The position numbers and the translations under genes are program-made. The notes beneath the pieces were generated by a model that was given only the letters and a program-made list of their open reading frames with translations, made no database searches and was not told where the DNA came from. DNA of 64,000 bases from assembly GCA_016938735.1 (NCBI GenBank), contig JAFGUB010000052.1:62001-126000 (forward strand). Reading direction: 5' to 3'. Positions 35,648 through 49,176 of this stretch are shown piece by piece. How positions within the stretch are numbered: the first letter of the stretch is position 1; each line of letters opens with the position of its first letter. The stretch comes from Campylobacterales bacterium (GTDB lineage: Bacteria; Campylobacterota; Campylobacteria; Campylobacterales; Sulfurimonadaceae).

Positions 35648-37000
35648 ATGACCCAAAATCACTACAATGTCATCATCGTCGGCGGCGGCATTTCGGGTGC
35701 GGCACTCTATTATGAACTGGGTCGCTATACCGACATCCCAAAAATAGCTCTTTTGGAGAAATACGAATCACTCTCCACGCTTAACTCCAGCGGCTCGGCC
35801 AACTCCCAAACCATCCACTGCGGCGACATCGAAACCAACTACACCCTTGAAAAAGCGCGCAAGGTCAGCCGTACCGCTAAAATGGTCGAGAAATACTGCC
35901 TACAGTACAGCTATGAAAACACCATCCTCTTTTCACACCAAAAAATGGCCATTGGCGTGGGCTTTGAAGAGGCCAAGTTTATCCGCAAGCGCTTTAATGA
36001 ATTTAAGGAGCTCTACCCCTATATGGAGCTCTATGAAAAGGAGCGCATCAAGGAGATCGAACCCGCGCTGATTTACGATGAGCAGGGGCATGAGCGCGAA
36101 GAGGAAGTTGTGGGCATGGGGGCGCAAAACCAGTGAACGACGGTCGACTTTAAAGCGCTCTCTGATAGCTTCATCGACAACACCCTCAGTCGTGACGACA
36201 AAATCACCGACATCTTTTTCAACTCCGAAGTGAAGCACATCCAAAAGCTCGGCAAGCTCTTTCACCTCGAAACCGTGCGTGGGCACCACTTCACCGCCGA
36301 TTTTGTAGTGGTCAATGCCGGAGCGCACAGCCTCTATCTCGCGCATCAGATGGGTTATGGGCATGAGTACGCCACATTGCCGGTGGCGGGCAGCTTCTAC
36401 GTCTCGACTAAAAAGATTCTAAACGGCAAAGTCTACATGGTGCAAAACCCCAAACTTCCCTTTGCCGCACTGCACGGCGACCCGGACATTCTGCTTGGCG
36501 GTTACACCCGATTCGGTCCCACCGCGCTGGTGCTGCCCAAGCTTGAGCGCTTTCACGGCAATGCCACCGTCATCGACTTTTTCAAGACCCTGCGCATCGA
36601 CCTGCATATCTTTAAGATCTTTTACGACTTGCTCAAGGATAGCGACATCCGCAACTACATCCTGCGCAACTTCCTCTTTGAGATCCCCTACTTCAACAAA
36701 AAACTCTTTATTAAAGACGCCCGCAAAATCGTCCCCTCACTTCAAGAGAGCGACATCGAGTACGCCGAAGGCTTCGGCGGGGTACGCCCGCAGGTGCTGG
36801 ATAAAAAGAGTGAAAAGCTGATGCTCGGCGAAGCCTCCATCAACACCGGAGAGGGGATCATCTTCAATATGACCCCCTCTCCGGGGGCCACCAGCTGTCT
36901 TGGCAACGGCATTCGCGACGTCGCCATTATCGCGGCGTATCTGGGGCTGCATTTTGACGAAGCCGCGTTTAAACGCGAGCTCACCGACGATCAGGAGTAA
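35648..37000 (+). pseudogene. mqo: Malate:quinone oxidoreductase with one in-frame TGA
   Basis: One 451-codon frame interrupted only by TGA at 36134-36136 (codon 163). The protein matches the Helicobacter/Campylobacter type of Mqo: VIIVGGGISGAALYYEL, SSGSANSQTIHCGDIETNYT, LPVAGSFYVS, VQNPKLPFAALHGDP and FNMTPSPGATSC. It would oxidise malate and pass electrons to quinone. The sequence runs QNQ-stop-TTVDFKAL; in Helicobacter Mqo, as I recall it, Trp stands at this place, so TGG to TGA is the simplest change. GGAGCC precedes the start. Either a recent null allele, a sequencing error, or read-through. Confidence 0.82.
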
Positions 37001-38153: not shown

Positions 38154-38162
38154 AGGGTGTGT

Positions 38163-38441
38163 ATGCCAAGCAAAGAGGAAGTTTTGCTCCTGGAGATCTG
38201 CGAATGCGGTGCCAAAAACGTCGCTCAGGCGATTGAGATCTTCCAAAACACCTCGTTGCCCTTTAAAAAATCGAAAAAGCTGGTGACGGAGTGCAACAAA
38301 AACTGCTGCCGTGGGGCACTTGAGAAGCTCAACGACATGGTCACCTTCGGACGTTTCGATTATGACGAGATTGCCCACCTCATCCATCTGCGCCACGACC
38401 GCATGGCACGCCTGCTCGAAGGACTCAAAAGTGACGACTGA
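38163..38441 (+). CDS. Small Cys-containing unknown protein
   Basis: A 92-residue protein with ICECG near residue 11 and CNKNCC near residue 41, so four to five cysteines spaced for an iron-sulfur cluster or metal site. No family was recognised with confidence. Start ATG 38163 is preferred over GTG 38157. It overlaps the LRR-GNAT gene by 11 bases. Confidence 0.6.
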   Translation: MPSKEEVLLLEICECGAKNVAQAIEIFQNTSLPFKKSKKLVTECNKNCCRGALEKLNDMVTFGRFDYDEIAHLIHLRHDRMARLLEGLKSDD

Positions 38442-39930
38442 AGCGCTCACCACTCTACACCACTGGCTTTTTCAGCACAACGCGATTGATGCGCACACAA
38501 CCCCCCAATCGCTGCTTGACCTCACCAGACTCGATCTCTCCTCGCGCAACCTGCTCAGCCTACCTGATTCCATTGCCTTATTGCCTAAACTCAGCGCCCT
38601 CAACCTTGCCAACAACCGCCTAGAGAGCCTGCCCGATCTAAGCACGCTAAACGCGCTCGTGCATCTCGATCTACGCCGTAACCAGCTCAAAAGCCTGTGT
38701 GAATCCTTCGGCAATCTAAGCGTACGCTCGCTCAACCTCAGCGCCAACCGCCTCAAATCGATTGACACGCTGCGTTCATGTAATTTCTTGCGCGTGCTTG
38801 ATCTAAGCGCCAACACCATTGATGAGACGACGGGGATTTTTGACGCCATGCCCGATCTGCGCAGCCTAAACCTCGCACACAACGCCCTTGGCCGCTTTAG
38901 CATCGCGCCGCATCAAAGCTTGGAGCATCTCAACCTCTCGAACAACTTTTTAACCGCCGTCGATCCCGCGCTTGGACGACTTGAAGAGCTCAAAACCCTG
39001 GATTGCTCCAACAACCAACTCACCGACGTGACCTTACTTGAGGGCTTTGCCTCGCTTGAGCGGCTCGATCTAAGCTCCAACCGCATCGTCACCGCGCGCT
39101 TGGGTGCGTGCGAGATGCTAGAAGAGCTGAGCCTCGATGACAATCCCTTAAACGTGCTACGCTTCGAACCCGATTTCGCCCCCGATCTGCGTCTCTTTTC
39201 GGCACAAGGCTGCGGCTTGAGCAGACTCGATCTGCCCCCTTCACGCACGCTTGAGTCGCTTTTGCTCGCCGACAATCAGCTAAGCGCCTTGCCTTCGACG
39301 CTCTCAAGCTACACCGCCTTGAAAGAGCTTGACCTCAGCGCCAACGCCCTCACCGATCTCTCTGAAGCGCTCAAACCCTTACATGGTCTACACACCCTCA
39401 TGATCGATCGCAATCCGCTCCCGCAGGAGCAGATCGATCAACTGCTCTTGCGGGGCATCGACAACTGCGATCTGTCCGTCAAACACGCCATTCGCATCGA
39501 CGCTGCAAAGCCTGAGGATTGCCCTGTGATGGCGCGTCTACTGGGGCAACTCTTTAGCATCGAGCGCGACTTCGTCATCGACTATGAGCGGCAGCTTGCC
39601 GGGCTGGAGCTTTTACTGCAAGATCCCCGCTGCCGCGTCTTCGTCGCAAAGCACCAAGAGCGCGTTGTGGGCATGATCACGATGCAGCCGCTGATCTCCA
39701 CCGCATCGGGCGGCGCGGTGGGACAGGTAGAAGACCTAATTGTCGATGCCACCTACCGCAACATCGGCATCGGCTCGAAACTGCTTGCGCGCGTGGTTGA
39801 GGAGGCCAAAACGCTGGCCTACCGACGCATCGCATTAGGGGCCGACATGAGCAACCGCAAGGCGCTGGAGTTCTACCGCAGCCATGGGTTTGTCAAAACC
39901 AACCTCAATAGTTATCATTTATCACTCTAA
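38431..39930 (+). CDS. Leucine-rich-repeat protein fused to GNAT acetyltransferase
   Basis: A 499-residue fusion. Residues about 25-345 are a run of roughly 14 leucine-rich repeats of 21-23 residues (LxxLxLxxNxL; for example LNLANNRLESLPDL and LDLSSNRIV). Residues about 350-499 are a GNAT N-acetyltransferase domain, with the acetyl-CoA loop RNIGIGSKLL near 443 and the closing NRKALEFYRSHGF. The LRR would choose a partner and the GNAT part would acetylate it; this is inference. GTG 38431 has AAGGA upstream and fits the domain start. No signal peptide, so cytoplasmic. Confidence 0.85.
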   Translation: MTTEALTTLHHWLFQHNAIDAHTTPQSLLDLTRLDLSSRNLLSLPDSIALLPKLSALNLANNRLESLPDLSTLNALVHLDLRRNQLKSLCESFGNLSVRSLNLSANRLKSIDTLRSCNFLRVLDLSANTIDETTGIFDAMPDLRSLNLAHNALGRFSIAPHQSLEHLNLSNNFLTAVDPALGRLEELKTLDCSNNQLTDVTLLEGFASLERLDLSSNRIVTARLGACEMLEELSLDDNPLNVLRFEPDFAPDLRLFSAQGCGLSRLDLPPSRTLESLLLADNQLSALPSTLSSYTALKELDLSANALTDLSEALKPLHGLHTLMIDRNPLPQEQIDQLLLRGIDNCDLSVKHAIRIDAAKPEDCPVMARLLGQLFSIERDFVIDYERQLAGLELLLQDPRCRVFVAKHQERVVGMITMQPLISTASGGAVGQVEDLIVDATYRNIGIGSKLLARVVEEAKTLAYRRIALGADMSNRKALEFYRSHGFVKTNLNSYHLSL

Positions 39931-42434: not shown

Positions 42435-43979
42435 TTAGCGCACGAGGTCGAAGAAGTAGTCCGTAGAGGCGATGCCCTTGGTCTCTTCATCAAGCTGATC
42501 AAGCACCTTGTTGGTGATCCAAGTCAGCAAGTTGAGCGCTCCGTCGTAGCCGCTGATAGAGTAGCGGTGCAAGTGGTGGCGGTCAAAAATCGGGAAACCG
42601 ATGTAGATCAGCGGCGTGCCCGTGTCGCGCATCAGCTCTTTACCGTAGCTGTTGCCGATCATGAAATCAACCGGTTCAGTGAAGAGCAGGCTGCGCATGT
42701 GCCAGAGGTCTTTGCCGGCCCATACATGTAAGCTATCTTTAGCCGGTGAAGTATCAAGAAGCGCGCGCATCTCCTCTTCCCAGCCTGAAGGTGCGTTGTG
42801 GCACAGTACATGCGTAGGCTCAGCGCCCATCTCCAGCAAGAAACCGACCACACCGATCAGGAAGTCAGGATCTCCCCAGATGGCGAATTTTTTGCCATGC
42901 ATGTACGGATAGCTGTCTTGCATCGCATCGACGAGTCTGCCGCGCTCAGTTTTGAGTTTGGCAGGTACCTCTTTGCCGGTGAGTTCAGCAAGTTTCATCA
43001 CGAACTCATCAGTCCCTTTGAGACCTACAGGGTTAGAGAAACCACCTTTGTGCTTCCAGCGCTTTTGCACCATTTTCATGGTTTTCACGGTGGCATATTT
43101 CTGCAAAGAGATGGTCGCAGTTGAGTTCATACAATCTTTGGCATCTTCGATTTTGGTACCGCCGGCGAACATGTGGTACTCGCCTGCAGGCATATCCCAC
43201 TGATCAGAGTGGTCGCCCAGCATGATGTAATTCGCGCCGAAAGACTCAACAATGGCTTTGACCGAACGGATTGAGCCGATATAGGTCTCAAAGCCAGGGA
43301 TGATGTTGATGCGCTCTTTTTTCTCACCTTCGTTACCTTCGGTGAGCTGCTGCATGGTTGCTTGCATCATGTTGTCATAGCCGGTGATATGGCTGCCGAC
43401 AAATGAAGGCGTGTGCGCATAAGGAACCGGATACTCGCGTGGCAAGAACTCGCCGCCGTCTTCGTCTTTGGCACCTTCGATGAACGCATAGAGGTCATCA
43501 CCGATAACTTCCGCCATACATGTAGTCGATACCATGATCATTTTTGGTTTGTAGATCGCCGCACAGTTTTTGAGGCCGTCTTTCATGTTGGCAAGACCGC
43601 CGAATACCGCCGCGTCTTCGGTCATAGAGTCTGATACACAAGGTGTAGGCTCTTTGAAGTGGCGTGTAAAGTACGAGCGAAAGTACGCCACACAGCCGTG
43701 TGAACCGTGTACATAAGGCATGGTATCTTCAAAGCCCAGAGCGACCATAACGGCACCCAAAGGCTGACACGCTTTAACCGGATTGACGGTGATCGCTTCA
43801 CGCGCCAAGTTCTTTTCGCGGTAGTCCCATGATTTGGTCCACTCAGCGATTTCTTGAACTTTTGCAGGGTTGATCGCGCCCATACCGCCTTCAAATTGCT
43901 TTTTGTTGGCGAGTACTTCTTGATATTCCGGCTTTTGAAACAGTTTTTGTCCGTTGACTATTTGTTCTGCATTTTGCAT
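42435..43979 (-). CDS. nifK: Nitrogenase molybdenum-iron protein beta chain
   Basis: A 514-residue subunit of dinitrogenase that forms the NifD2NifK2 tetramer and shares the P-cluster. Signature stretches: VNPVKACQPLGAVMVALGFE and HGSHGCVAYFRSY, which hold P-cluster cysteines, and CVSDSMTEDAAVFGG. CCAGGAG lies before ATG 43979; the longer frame is not supported. It is the last gene of nifH-orphan-nifD-nifK, 29 bases after nifD, and is followed by a hairpin. It holds only imperfect palindrome copies (ATACATGTAA at 42723-42732). Confidence 0.96.
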   Translation of the reverse strand: MQNAEQIVNGQKLFQKPEYQEVLANKKQFEGGMGAINPAKVQEIAEWTKSWDYREKNLAREAITVNPVKACQPLGAVMVALGFEDTMPYVHGSHGCVAYFRSYFTRHFKEPTPCVSDSMTEDAAVFGGLANMKDGLKNCAAIYKPKMIMVSTTCMAEVIGDDLYAFIEGAKDEDGGEFLPREYPVPYAHTPSFVGSHITGYDNMMQATMQQLTEGNEGEKKERINIIPGFETYIGSIRSVKAIVESFGANYIMLGDHSDQWDMPAGEYHMFAGGTKIEDAKDCMNSTATISLQKYATVKTMKMVQKRWKHKGGFSNPVGLKGTDEFVMKLAELTGKEVPAKLKTERGRLVDAMQDSYPYMHGKKFAIWGDPDFLIGVVGFLLEMGAEPTHVLCHNAPSGWEEEMRALLDTSPAKDSLHVWAGKDLWHMRSLLFTEPVDFMIGNSYGKELMRDTGTPLIYIGFPIFDRHHLHRYSISGYDGALNLLTWITNKVLDQLDEETKGIASTDYFFDLVR

Positions 43980-44008
43980 GATGATTCTCCTGGTTGCGAA
44001 GAGGAGGC

Positions 44009-45475
44009 TTACGCCTCGCTCTCCCATGGTGCTTTGGTGTGTGCCCAAACGGGAGAGTTCATCGCCAAATCCATATCTTTGGCAAAGATGGCAAACCCGT
44101 CATACCCGTGGTATGGACCGCTGTAGTCCCAAGAGTGCATCTGACGATACGGCAGACCCATTTTTTGGAACACATACTTCTCTTTGATCCCTGAAGCAAC
44201 AAGGTCAGGTTGAAGTTTTTTAACAAACGCTTCGAGCTCATACTCATTGACGTCGTCATAGATTACGGTAGAGCGGAAGATCTCCTCTTTGGTACGTTTG
44301 TAGTCATCATCATGGGCAAATTCATAACCCGTTCCGATCACTTCCATACCGAGGTCTTCATACGCACCGATGACGTGACGCGGGCGCAGACCGCCGACGA
44401 ACAACATGACTGTTTTACCCTCAAGGCGTGGGCGGTATTTGTTGATGACCGCATCGACCATAGGTTGGTACTTCGCAATGACCTCTTCACATTTAGCCTG
44501 AACACCTTCGTCGAAAAACGCTGCGATTTTGCGCAGTGATTTGATCGTTTGGGTTGGGCCGAAGAAGTTGTACTCAATCCAGGGAATCCCGAACTCTTTC
44601 TCCATGTGACGGCTGATGTAGTTCATCGAGCGGTAGCAGTGCAGCAAGTTGAGCTTCACTTTAGGTGTCATCGCCATCTCTTTAAGCGTTGCATCCCCTG
44701 ACCACTGAGCCACAACACGCAGACCCATCTCTTCGAGCAAAATACGGCTTGACCATGCGTCACCGCCGATATTGTAGTCGCCGATGATCGCTACGTCGTA
44801 CTCAGTCGGTACAATCGCGTCGCCAAGGGTGTCTACTTTGCCATCAAAGATGTAGTCGCGAACGGTGTCATTGGCAATGTGGTGACCGAGTGATTGAGAT
44901 ACACCGCGAAATCCTTCGCAGTTAACCGGAACAATCACTTTGCCGGTCTGTTTGGCATACATTTTTGAGGTAGCGTTGATATCATCCCCGATCAGACCGA
45001 TCGGACACTCTGATTGCACGGTGATGCCGTTGTTGAGTGGGAAGAGTTCATCAATTTCACTAAAACATTTGGTCAATTTTTTGTCACCGCCGAATACGAT
45101 GTCTTTCTCTTGGAAATCTGAAGAGAAGTTCATCGTAACGAAGGTGTCCACACCTGTAGTACCGATGTAGTAGTTACGGCGACCTGCGCGTGAATACTGT
45201 CCACAACCGATTGGACCGTGGCTGATATGAACCATGTCTTTGACAGGACCCCATACAACACCTTTAGATCCGGCATACGCACAGCCGCGTTGGCTCATGA
45301 CGCCCGGAACGGTCTTTTTGTTGGAGCGGACATCACCGCAGGTTTTTTGACTCTCATCATCGGGTGTACCGACGCCAAGGTGCTTAGCGCGGTTTTTTGC
45401 TGCTTTTGAAGGATACGCTTTAAGTACCTCTTCGACGGCGGCTTTCTGTTTCGCTTCTAAGGATTCTGGTCCCAT
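44009..45475 (-). CDS. nifD: Nitrogenase molybdenum-iron protein alpha chain
   Basis: A 488-residue dinitrogenase subunit carrying the iron-molybdenum cofactor. P-cluster motifs [15 protein letters not shown] and [10 protein letters not shown], the FeMo-co Cys in [11 protein letters not shown], and the FeMo-co His in [11 protein letters not shown] are all present, so it should be catalytic. The residue set fits molybdenum nitrogenase rather than the vanadium or iron-only forms. It is 25 bases from the orphan upstream gene. Confidence 0.97.
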
Positions 45476-45500: not shown

Positions 45501-45860
45501 CTACGCCGCTACGATGCGGAACATAGACATAGAGTCAAATTTTTTGCACATGTGCATGGATTCATCATCACCGTCAAGACGCTTGGAAAGTTCGGCAATT
45601 TGGTAGCGGTTGGTATAGATCATGTAATCAGTCTCAGCTGTTTTAGCGTAGTGAACCAGTGCTTTGAACATAAAAGTATCTTTCTTGGTATAAGAAAGCT
45701 CTTCTTTTTGGTTCTCACGGCTGGTCATGTACATTTTGATCTCATTGATACCATCAATACCGCCAACTTTTGCGAGCTCTTCGTCGAGTTTTTCAACAAC
45801 TACTTGATCAGGAATAGTATTTCCCATGGATGCAGGGAAGTGGAAACCTAAAATAAACAT
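45501..45860 (-). CDS. Unknown 119-residue protein between nifH and nifD
   Basis: A 119-residue soluble protein, co-directional with nif genes and with AAGGAG before ATG 45860. It does not show the PII/NifI pattern (no T-loop or trimer motifs), although NifI proteins take this position in some archaea and anaerobes. It is rich in Met, Lys, Glu and Tyr, and ends in a helical [18 protein letters not shown] stretch. The tight spacing suggests a nitrogenase-linked role, for instance regulation or protection. Confidence 0.75.
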
Positions 45861-45962: not shown

Positions 45963-46904
<942 letters not shown>

Positions 46905-47033: not shown

Positions 47034-48086
47034 TTACGACAAAAAGTCGTAGACCGCCCGAGCGTCGCCGCGAAAGAGAATGGGAAGAGTTGTGCGCTCG
47101 ATCTGGTAGTCATACATCGGATCGTAGTATTCGCACAGCAGGGTTTCGATCCATATTTTGTGCTTATCTGCTTCGCCGTAGGCCTCTTGATGCTTCTGCG
47201 CCTCGTGCATCTGCGTGCGCACATGATCATAACGCTCGTGCCCCAGACGTTTCATGATGCGCTCAAGCGCCTCCAGCATCGCCTCAAACCAGCGTTCCCC
47301 CATGCGCCGCTGCAAGTCGGTCACATACGCCTCAAACACCACCTCGATGCGCTCCTCAAGCGGACACTCCAGCACAATCAGTACACCCTTTAAAAATGCG
47401 TCATAGATCGGTTTGGGAATAAAGAACCGCCCGATACGGTAGCTCTCATGCTCGATGATGAGCGACTCATGCCGCTGCGCCTCATGGCGAATCAGCGCGT
47501 AAGCCAGAGCGTTTTCAAAATCGATCTGCGCAGGTTGAGGCGTGCTCATCTTGCCAAAGGCCGATCCGCGATGATTGGCCAGCGCCTCCAGATCGATGCT
47601 GCCGCGCAAGCGATTGAGCAGCAGCGTCTTGCCCGATCCCGTGCGTCCGCCGATGATGCGCACGCTGCTTTGCGCCGCGATGCGCTCGGCTTCGGCGCTC
47701 AAAAAGGCGCGAAATGCCTTGTAACCCCCTTTGATGCGCGGTAGCTCTATTCCCGCCTCACCAAGCCACTGCTGCGCAATGCGCGAGCGCTGACCGCCGC
47801 GAAAACAGTAGATGTAGGCTTCGGGATGCGCCCTAGCAAACTCCGCCCACACCGCTACACGCGCCTCTTTGACCGCACCGCCGATCAGCTCATGCCCCAG
47901 CGCCACCGCCGCCGCGTTGCCCGCTTCTTTATAGCGTGTGCCCACCAAAGCGCGTTCATTGTCATCTAACAGCGGCAGATTGACCGCGCCTTCAAACGAA
48001 CCTTTGTCAAACTCAACGGGTGCGCGCACGTCGATAAGCGGCCGCGCCTCCAGTACAATGGAGCGGAAATCCTCCAACAGTGTCAT
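47034..48086 (-). CDS. mnmH: tRNA 2-selenouridine synthase
   Basis: A 350-residue SelU/MnmH enzyme that converts 2-thiouridine at tRNA wobble position 34 to 2-selenouridine. The rhodanese domain has the catalytic Cys94 in CFRGGQRS; the P-loop domain has GGRTGSGKT (146-154). ATG 48086 overlaps the selD stop (ATGA), so the donor and user of selenophosphate are co-translated. Confidence 0.93.
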   Translation of the reverse strand: MTLLEDFRSIVLEARPLIDVRAPVEFDKGSFEGAVNLPLLDDNERALVGTRYKEAGNAAAVALGHELIGGAVKEARVAVWAEFARAHPEAYIYCFRGGQRSRIAQQWLGEAGIELPRIKGGYKAFRAFLSAEAERIAAQSSVRIIGGRTGSGKTLLLNRLRGSIDLEALANHRGSAFGKMSTPQPAQIDFENALAYALIRHEAQRHESLIIEHESYRIGRFFIPKPIYDAFLKGVLIVLECPLEERIEVVFEAYVTDLQRRMGERWFEAMLEALERIMKRLGHERYDHVRTQMHEAQKHQEAYGEADKHKIWIETLLCEYYDPMYDYQIERTTLPILFRGDARAVYDFLS

Positions 48087-49117
48087 CAAATCACCTCAAT
48101 CAGCGGCATCTTGGGCGAAGTCGTCTCGCCGATCGGCTCAAGCTCCAGTCCATAGCGGCGCGTCACCTCCAAAAATGCCGCCACGCTTTCGCGTGCCACC
48201 ACACACAGCAGTCCGCCGGAGGTCTGCGCGTCGCAAAAGAGATCTTGTTGCGCCGCACTGAGCGGCCCCAGATGCGCCTTGTAACTCTCAAAATTTCGCC
48301 GCGTGCCGCCGGGGACGCAGCCAAGGGCCTGATAGTGCACCGCGCCCTCTAGCAGCGGCACCGCGTCAGCGTAGATGAGCGCCCCCACGCCGCTGCCCAG
48401 ACAAATTTCACTCAGATGTCCCATCAGCCCAAAACCCGTCACGTCGGTCATGGCGCTCACCCCTTCGATCTGCGCGATCTCGAAGCCCGCGCGGTTGAGC
48501 GTGCACATCGCATCAATGGCGACCTGCAGCTCAGCAGGCGTGATCTTGCCCTGTTTTTGGGCGGTGGTGAGGATACCCACACCCAGCGGCTTGGTCAAAA
48601 AGAGCAAGGCGTCACTTTGGGCCGTGTTGTTGCGTTTGAGATTGCGGTTTTCGACGATCCCACTTACCGCAAGCCCAAAGATCGGCTCGGGCGCATCGAT
48701 GCTGTGACCGCCGGCAAGCGGAATCCCCGCTTCCTTACATGTAAAGCGTCCCCCTTCAATCACCGCCTTTGCCACATCGCTTGAGAGCAGATTCACCGGC
48801 CAGCCGAAGATGGAGAGCGCCATCAAAGGCCGCCCGCCCATCGCGTAGATGTCGCTGATGGCATTGGTAGCGGCGATCCGCCCGAAGGTAAAGGGATCAT
48901 CCACAATCGGCATGAAAAAATCGGTCGTCGAGAGCATCGAGGTGCCGTTGCCCAGATCATACGCCGCCGCGTCGTCGTTACTACCGTTGCCCACCAGCAA
49001 CTCAGGGCAGACCATAGCGTCGCGTGAACCTTCCAAAATGGCATCGAGCACCTTGGGTGCAATTTTGCAGCCACAGCCCGCACCGTGAGAGTATTGGGTC
49101 AGTTTAATATCACTCAT
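48086..49117 (-). CDS. selD: Selenophosphate synthase
   Basis: A 343-residue enzyme that makes selenophosphate from selenide and ATP. The active-site loop is AGCGCK with Cys15, Cys17 and Lys18, the Cys form rather than the selenocysteine form. The ATP-binding Asp motifs [10 protein letters not shown] and TTDFFMP follow. AAGGTG precedes ATG 49117. A TTACATGTAA copy (48735-48744) encodes FTCKEA. It feeds mnmH and perhaps selenoproteins made elsewhere. Confidence 0.95.
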
Positions 49118-49176
49118 CAATCACCTTTTTTTCAGCATGATAATCTTCAAGCGCTTAATGATGCTATGCTTCGCTT

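Follow-up and report, generated by a model that had tools for sequence, protein, structure and literature searches.

What is the role of a protein that joins a long array of leucine-rich repeats (LRRs) to an acetyltransferase domain of the GNAT type, and is it a single protein at all? The question is raised by one gene in the window, that is, the whole 64,000-nucleotide stretch of DNA analysed here. An earlier note on this DNA had described roughly 14 repeats, a full acetyltransferase with an intact acetyl-CoA loop, and no signal peptide. These readings are borne out. The main result beyond the confirmed fusion is the context: the gene is set in the nitrogen-fixation (nif) cluster of sulfur-oxidising bacteria. 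The positions of the relevant features are given in the table.

Table. Features of the LRR-GNAT locus (window coordinates)
Feature	Position	Strand	Remarks
LRR-GNAT fusion gene	38431..39930	+	GTG start, 499 aa, one ORF
LRR part, residues 1-346	38431..39468	+	helical N-cap, 14 LRR strands, C-cap with a ...CDL motif as in stand-alone nif LRR proteins
GNAT domain, residues 355-499	39493..39930	+	
E434-D435, invariant	39730..39735	+	alignments
Acetyl-CoA (P-loop) motif R443-N-I-G446-I-G448	39757..39774	+	
Y482, invariant	39874..39876	+	alignments
CCx92	38157..38441	+	94 aa; likelier start ATG at 38163
nifK	42435..44048	-	TIGR01286 793 bits, cut-off 427
nifD	44009..45475	-	TIGR01282 826 bits, cut-off 654
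nifH	45963..46904	-	TIGR01287 422 bits, cut-off 394
Conserved 119-aa protein between nifH and nifD	45501..45860	-	no Pfam/NCBIfam match

By its sequence, the protein belongs both to the GNAT acetyltransferases and to the LRR proteins. The repeats are recognised by the Pfam families LRR_4 (E 1.3e-31, six stretches) and LRR_8 (E 8.4e-31), both above the curated cut-offs, and residues 390-487 by Acetyltransf_1 (E 3.2e-18, 66.5 bits against a cut-off of 20.7). Among the Pfam matches with E up to 0.1 there is no LRV repeat family, and the DRAT domain PF07357 is likewise absent from the matches. Structure prediction, which the earlier note had proposed as a check, gives an LRR solenoid followed by a GNAT domain (AlphaFold2 with 36 aligned sequences, mean pLDDT 92.3, pTM 0.70). 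In this model the 14 strands of the solenoid span residues 33 to 324, the GNAT domain begins at about residue 355, and the junction between them is short and ordered. No obvious N-terminal signal sequence is seen by eye.

The catalytic features are conserved. Two alignments, of 25 and of 36 rows, show no or almost no variation at E434, D435 and Y482, the tyrosine presumably occupying the usual position of the general acid in GNAT enzymes. The P-loop R443-x-x-G446-x-G448 is nearly invariant, with at least 90% conservation in the 36 rows, which draw on several phyla. This pattern argues for catalysis. In the LRR part, concave positions are better conserved than other non-core positions (0.73 vs 0.60), as would be predicted if that face binds a partner; the conservation lies mostly in the N-terminal repeats and partly reflects the LRR consensus. 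The nearest named NCBIfam profiles to the GNAT domain are amine and aminoglycoside acetyltransferases and RimI, all under the cut-off, and the solved structures nearest to it in sequence are mostly of uncharacterised proteins or aminoglycoside acetyltransferases. Full-length fold searches with the fusion protein are dominated by LRR proteins.

The fusion recurs in many genomes. The search for the same domain order, also suggested in the earlier note, gives matches in 77 of the 228 genomes of the window's family, 29 of which contain the fusion. Both halves lie within one ORF in 27 of these 29; in G022 the gene is cut across two contig ends, and in G131 it is split into two overlapping frames. 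Four more fusions, from other families (G499, G408, G327, G358), were found in a search of 398 genomes of the order. The best 80 of 138 matches in an alignment-based scan of contigs from 84,980 species include the fusions L075-L098, labelled as Sulfuricurvum, Sulfurimonas, Sulfurovum, Sulfurospirillum and further or mixed Campylobacterota bins, as well as a fusion remnant with few repeats (L099). Outside Campylobacterota, these 80 matches contain no fusion and solely GNAT-only relatives. In a phylum-wide draw of 397 genomes, all matches at E <= 1e-30 fall within the same order. A single-protein scan of species contigs produced no match, and the plasmid collection yielded no full-length match to LRR-GNAT.

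The earlier note had allowed for a frame artefact, with the two parts being separate genes in all relatives. The parts are indeed separate genes in Arcobacteraceae-type genomes, and the LRR part is absent in many Sulfuricurvum-type genomes. The many relatives with one part only, and the different frames in G131, speak for neighbouring genes having been joined by a sequencing or frame error. However, the parts are fused in the 29 family and four order genomes listed above, the GNAT tree groups the fusions together, and the modelled junction is ordered. With one open frame in 27 of 29 family genomes, the artefact is ruled out, and we assign it a negligible probability.

The earlier note was right about the fusion and the enzyme core but overlooked both the nif cluster and the overlapping cysteine-rich gene upstream. 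Downstream of the LRR-GNAT gene, at a distance of 2.5-7 kb, the window carries nifK, nifD and nifH on the opposite strand; LRR-GNAT and nifK are tail to tail, with other genes between them. The conserved 119-aa protein is encoded between nifH and nifD, the position of the NifI genes in other diazotrophs. The nif cluster of this genome is spread over two contigs; its contig C41 carries nifB, nifV, a gene for a two-GNAT protein, a SIR2-like gene, clpP and clpX. The common order in relatives is nifB-nifV-GNAT275-CCx92-LRR-GNAT-nifH-c7-nifD-nifK, and a second arm contains nifX-like, redoxin-like and SIR2-like genes, clpP, clpX and nifS. The label nifX-like is without profile support, and a 171-aa neighbour is labelled tpx on weak grounds, its Redoxin score being under the cut-off.

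Some neighbours of the fusion are of separate interest. GNAT275 (about 275 aa; Acetyltransf_10 and Acetyltransf_18) differs from the GNAT of the fusion; it directly follows nifV, for example at L073:11704-12564, and occurs in the fetched stretch of 23 of the 29 fusion loci. A FeoA-domain gene (PF04023, 57 bits) lies between GNAT275 and CCx92 at L085:4895-5116 and also at L100:8997-9221, and ORFs of similar length occupy this position in several other nif loci. Beside nifH in the window (47034-49120, minus strand) there are selenium-gene-like rhodanese-domain and AIRS-domain genes (Pfam), which we take to be selU and selD. At 35648-37000 (plus strand), a gene of a FAD-dependent oxidoreductase (DAO/Mqo-like) is broken by an in-frame stop codon. 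An intact 450-aa copy is present in G022 (L074:367-1719), with 425 of 451 positions alike; the stop is either recent gene decay or an assembly error.

The linkage to nif genes extends to the relatives. At least one nif gene is present in the fetched stretch of 28 of 29 fusion loci in the family and of all four in the order, and the same is true for all 28 loci examined out of the 29 with a close stand-alone GNAT (G060 was left out). The nifD gene is present in 70 of the 228 family genomes. The fusion or a close stand-alone GNAT is found in 54 of these 70, against four of the 158 nifD-negative genomes (Fisher p 7e-33, a value that is too small, since related species are not independent). This count leaves out LRR-only matches, GNAT matches of at most 38% identity, and G145 (47% over 92 aa), whose fetched locus L214 is within a nif cluster. 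In the nifD-negative genomes G134, G015 and G064 (L042, L044, L052), nifB-nifV lie beside the fusion or GNAT, and in the nifD-negative G059 nifB or nifV does so on a 5.6-kb contig. That the LRR-GNAT gene is a dedicated member of the nif cluster is well supported. Control by sigma-54/NifA was considered as well and dropped: a simple scan for sigma-54 promoters upstream of CCx92 gave 2 of 65, no better than shuffled sequences (1.8%).

The last 11 nt of the upstream gene, CCx92, overlap the start of the LRR-GNAT gene. In relatives its product is about 80-94 aa long, and in 25 aligned rows the cysteines C15, C17, C46, C50 and C51 and the lysines K20, K37, K38, K40 and K41 are invariant. The sequence has no credible Pfam or PDB profile match. 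In a Foldseek search with its predicted model (pLDDT 86), the four top matches are Bfd [2Fe-2S] proteins, with E 1.7-4.0. The model superposes on Bfd with a VIA Z of 5.0 (55 of 56 residues, 2.3 A), compared with a Z of 4.3 for the next unrelated row. The cluster ligands of Bfd are C-x-C and C-x-x-C. The exact C-x-x-C is absent from CCx92 in the 25 rows, where the cysteines are C15-x-C17 and C46-xxx-C50-C51, and the Bfd spacing is not matched exactly. The predicted fold is thus a weak hint that CCx92 may be Bfd-like and bind a [2Fe-2S] cluster.

The position after CCx92 is a slot filled by an LRR protein alone, by LRR-GNAT, or by a GNAT alone, depending on the lineage. An LRR protein alone occupies it in part of genus g16 and in families f9 and f20; the window's genus, like many others, has LRR-GNAT there; and Sulfuricurvum-type genomes have GNAT alone. 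CCx92 adjoins the fusion in 27 of 29 family loci and in all four order loci, and it adjoins the stand-alone GNAT in 28 of 28. Family f9 is called Arcobacteraceae-type because its GNATs group with the Arcobacter record L111 in the tree; the name deep-sea-Sulfurimonas-type for the part of g16 is a guess. In four f9 genomes (G560, G434, G450, G339) the CCx92-LRR pair is in the nif island, in three of them after nifB-nifV-GNAT275. In these four genomes the nif-type GNAT gene is on the same contig at a distance of 41-53 kb, where it follows the SIR2-like gene and clpX and precedes a ferredoxin-type gene; in L174, the one locus tested, this last gene encodes a 4Fe-4S ferredoxin.

Both halves of the fusion have relatives among these separate genes. 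Scored with an HMM of the stand-alone LRR protein, the fusions reach 80-137 bits, whereas an unrelated LRR protein from the window's own genome gets 45; the two groups also share a C-cap that ends in CD[LIVM]. These likenesses mark the LRR part as a relative of the stand-alone nif LRR protein. In a tree of 95 of the 101 GNAT domains, duplicates and short ones being left out, the fusion GNATs group with stand-alone nif-cluster GNATs, apart from other GNATs of the family (nine rows from the same searches), although some deep forks are weak. One clade contains 28 fusions and three GNAT-only rows (96/68), with an inner fork of 29 rows (97/89). Since the alignment has few columns and some branches are long, the deep forks are unsure. 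The single clade indicates one fusion event followed by losses or partial copies; on this tree, LRR-GNAT originated about once in Campylobacterota, through the union of two nif-island genes that are still separate in Arcobacteraceae-type genomes.

Intermediate stages are visible. L099:8222-8917 retains the last LRRs and the GNAT, and L100:9974-10462 the GNAT alone, both in nif clusters that are otherwise fusion-like (among the best 80 of 138 matches), which suggests that loss of the repeats has been caught part-way. The deep-sea-Sulfurimonas-type and f20 genomes also have CCx92-LRR. However, their GNAT is of another clade, which is found in nif-less genomes too. The deep-sea-Sulfurimonas-type GNATs were rejected as the missing half because the tree places them with GNATs of nif-lacking genomes, and f9 is used instead as the evidence for separate parts. 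G194 has a second, LRR-less nif GNAT about 10 kb downstream of the fusion (L043:19107-19538); it is very close to the fusion in the tree and appears to be a recent partial duplication.

Relatives that consist of the GNAT alone (about 40-48% identity) come from Methylobacter, Desulfobulbales, Clostridium, FCPU426 and other groups. Within the best 80 of 138 matches there are 37 GNAT loci from outside Campylobacterota; a strict nif match (at least 37% identity for NifH or NifD, or at least 50% for NifB) is found for 18 of them, a loose match only for three, and none for 16. Of these 16 loci without nif genes in the available stretch, several are short contigs and most are from methanotrophs. In the Methylobacter locus L132, nifK, nifD and nifH on the minus strand are followed by genes of a SIR2-like protein, a 145-aa protein and the GNAT on the plus strand. 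In L138 the GNAT gene is directly preceded by a thioredoxin-like [2Fe-2S] ferredoxin gene (PF01257 over the cut-off), and by eye L145, L148 and L153 have a similar arrangement. In Desulfobulbales-type nif loci (L124:9628-9921, L143:8636-8950, L133 and L146) the GNAT is preceded by a conserved protein of 98-105 aa, which in L124 has no Pfam match.

The SIR2-like gene is present in the fetched stretch of 17 of the 29 fusion loci, many of which are on short contigs. All 21 members of this protein cluster (c4) match SIR2_2, weakly (E up to 1). The Methylobacter member, whose gene adjoins nifH and is separated from the GNAT gene by one other, is over the cut-off with 29.4 bits; two Campylobacterota members with scores are under it. 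No credible match to PDB sequences was found. Proteins of the SIR2_2 family may act as NADases instead of removing acetyl groups. Genes of similar description lie in other nif regions. The R. capsulatus (Rhodobacter) nif cluster encodes the SIR2-family protein Rcc03262, not found in a nifA mutant (available part of PMC6925177), and a Rhodovulum nif operon encodes a SIR2-like protein together with an LRR protein (available part of PMC9412634); both SIR2 genes are likened to that of our cluster by description. The nif island of Zymomonas also contains a SIR2 gene (excerpt of PMC8600466).

The simplest reading of a catalytic GNAT behind an LRR array, with a SIR2-like gene in the cluster, is guided acetylation of a protein in the service of nitrogen fixation. 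The earlier note's proposal that a chosen partner may be acetylated fits the LRR part and the nif setting. We consider the case evenly balanced for LRR-GNAT being a nif-dedicated protein acetyltransferase whose LRR part docks a nif client and whose action is probably opposed by the SIR2-like protein; protein acetylation, the client and the direction of control are what we infer. The LRR part would dock the client and hold it at the active site of the GNAT domain, which would move the acetyl group from acetyl-CoA onto a client lysine. The first candidate client is CCx92, as its gene adjoins all three contents of the slot and overlaps that of the fusion, and as it has invariant lysines beside invariant cysteines. 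NifH or NifDK would be the next candidates, given that in Zymomonas under N2 fixation NifH K12 and NifK K395, as well as NifA K45, are acetylated (excerpt of PMC8600466). Deacetylation would fall to the SIR2-like protein encoded in the cluster, and ClpXP may remove the modified or the unmodified client. Nitrogenase assembly or activity would then be tied to the levels of acetyl-CoA and NAD+ in organisms where no DraT was found. Many nif clusters have a GNAT but no longer an LRR part, so that docking by the LRR is not essential. The 16 of 37 loci without nif genes (best 80 of 138 matches) and the presence of the SIR2-like gene in no more than 17 of 29 fusion loci count against this reading. So do the GNAT of another clade in deep-sea-Sulfurimonas-type and f20 genomes, the possible NADase nature of SIR2_2 proteins, the outcome of the sigma-54 scan, and the division of the window's own nif cluster between two contigs, with LRR-GNAT and nifK tail to tail.

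Other readings of the same evidence are less probable. The protein could be a small-molecule acetyltransferase for a polyamine, amino acid or other amine needed in nitrogen fixation, the LRR part anchoring it to the nitrogenase assembly machinery. This fits the sub-threshold profiles and solved relatives described above, as well as the LRR-less GNATs in many nif clusters; however, a fused LRR part of 350 residues conserved in 29 genomes would be unusual for a metabolite enzyme, and a SIR2-like gene lies in the same operon or cluster. We regard this explanation as unlikely, if by no means far-fetched. Catalysis is dispensed with altogether if LRR-GNAT is a scaffold or assembly chaperone that binds CCx92 and a Nif client, its GNAT domain sensing CoA or acetyl-CoA. 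In f9, f20 and deep-sea-Sulfurimonas-type genomes, CCx92 is paired with an LRR protein that has no GNAT fused to it, which would suit such a role. The (nearly) invariant acetyl-CoA loop, E434, D435 and Y482 in 36 rows from several phyla would not, and the scaffold seems to us quite improbable. Slightly less probable still is that a general GNAT travels with nif islands and has no role in nitrogen fixation. Some of the methanotroph relatives indeed have no nif gene in the available stretch; yet in the nif loci examined the slot that follows CCx92 is retained despite changes in cluster order and in the LRR part, and just four of 158 family genomes lacking nifD have the gene.

A more specific form of guided acetylation is a reversible switch dedicated to nitrogenase, with the LRR-guided GNAT as writer, the SIR2-like protein as eraser and CCx92 as substrate or redox sensor. 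We hold this to be a speculative possibility, with the chances well on the negative side. If true, it would fill a DraT/DraG-like role in Campylobacterota and some other diazotrophs, reading acetyl-CoA, NAD+ and the redox state. Post-translational control of nitrogenase is known mainly from ADP-ribosylation. Enzymatic control by acetylation is barely studied, and the fusion may chemically tag a nitrogenase-related protein. A conserved acetyltransferase in the nif clusters of several phyla, which in the present case is fused to a module for protein binding and has a SIR2-like gene as company, makes acetylation control of nitrogen fixation testable, and such extra parts may have to be weighed on transfer of nif clusters to other hosts.

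Among known systems, the type III effectors XopAC, SlrP and XopL also combine LRRs with an enzyme domain, but the enzyme domains are different. NCBIfam profiles of the XopAC/SlrP type match weakly, through the LRRs (62 bits vs 450 and 44 vs 1113). A role as type III effector or virulence factor was rejected in view of these scores, far under the cut-offs, and of the nif context; nor has the protein an obvious secretion signal. Like the LRR protein of the Rhodovulum nif operon that occurs with a SIR2-like protein (PMC9412634), PST1332 of Pseudomonas stutzeri, an LRR/LRV-annotated nif-operon protein (PMC2820453), resembles our protein by annotation; the available parts of these papers report no GNAT fusion. 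The protein lysine acetyltransferases Pat and AAPatA (ACT-GNAT) combine a GNAT with a targeting or regulating domain (available part of PMC8556138); in the candidate described here the extra domain is the LRR part. A term search for LRR and leucine-rich found neither in the available text of PMC8556138 and PMC4964394, and no published LRR-GNAT fusion or nif-cluster GNAT of such kind was found in the PMC open-access literature.

DraT uses ADP-ribose from NAD+. If our reading is correct, the likeness to DraT/DraG would lie in reversible covalent control by genes tied to nitrogen fixation, and it is an analogy only. The systems differ in that the DRAT domain was found in none of 30 genomes searched (28 from the window's family and two from f9); by the same search it is present in four of 18 genomes reached through other loci. 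The closest relatives are found in nif clusters. The stand-alone nif-cluster GNAT has no LRR part and reaches no NCBIfam equivalog; it belongs to the same GNAT clade, with about 40-53% identity, and adjoins nif genes in Sulfuricurvum, Methylobacter, Desulfobulbales, Clostridium and FCPU426 loci (best 80 of 138 matches). The stand-alone nif LRR protein of Campylobacterota (about 330 aa) is without a GNAT, lies directly downstream of CCx92 and has the same N- and C-caps as the fusion.
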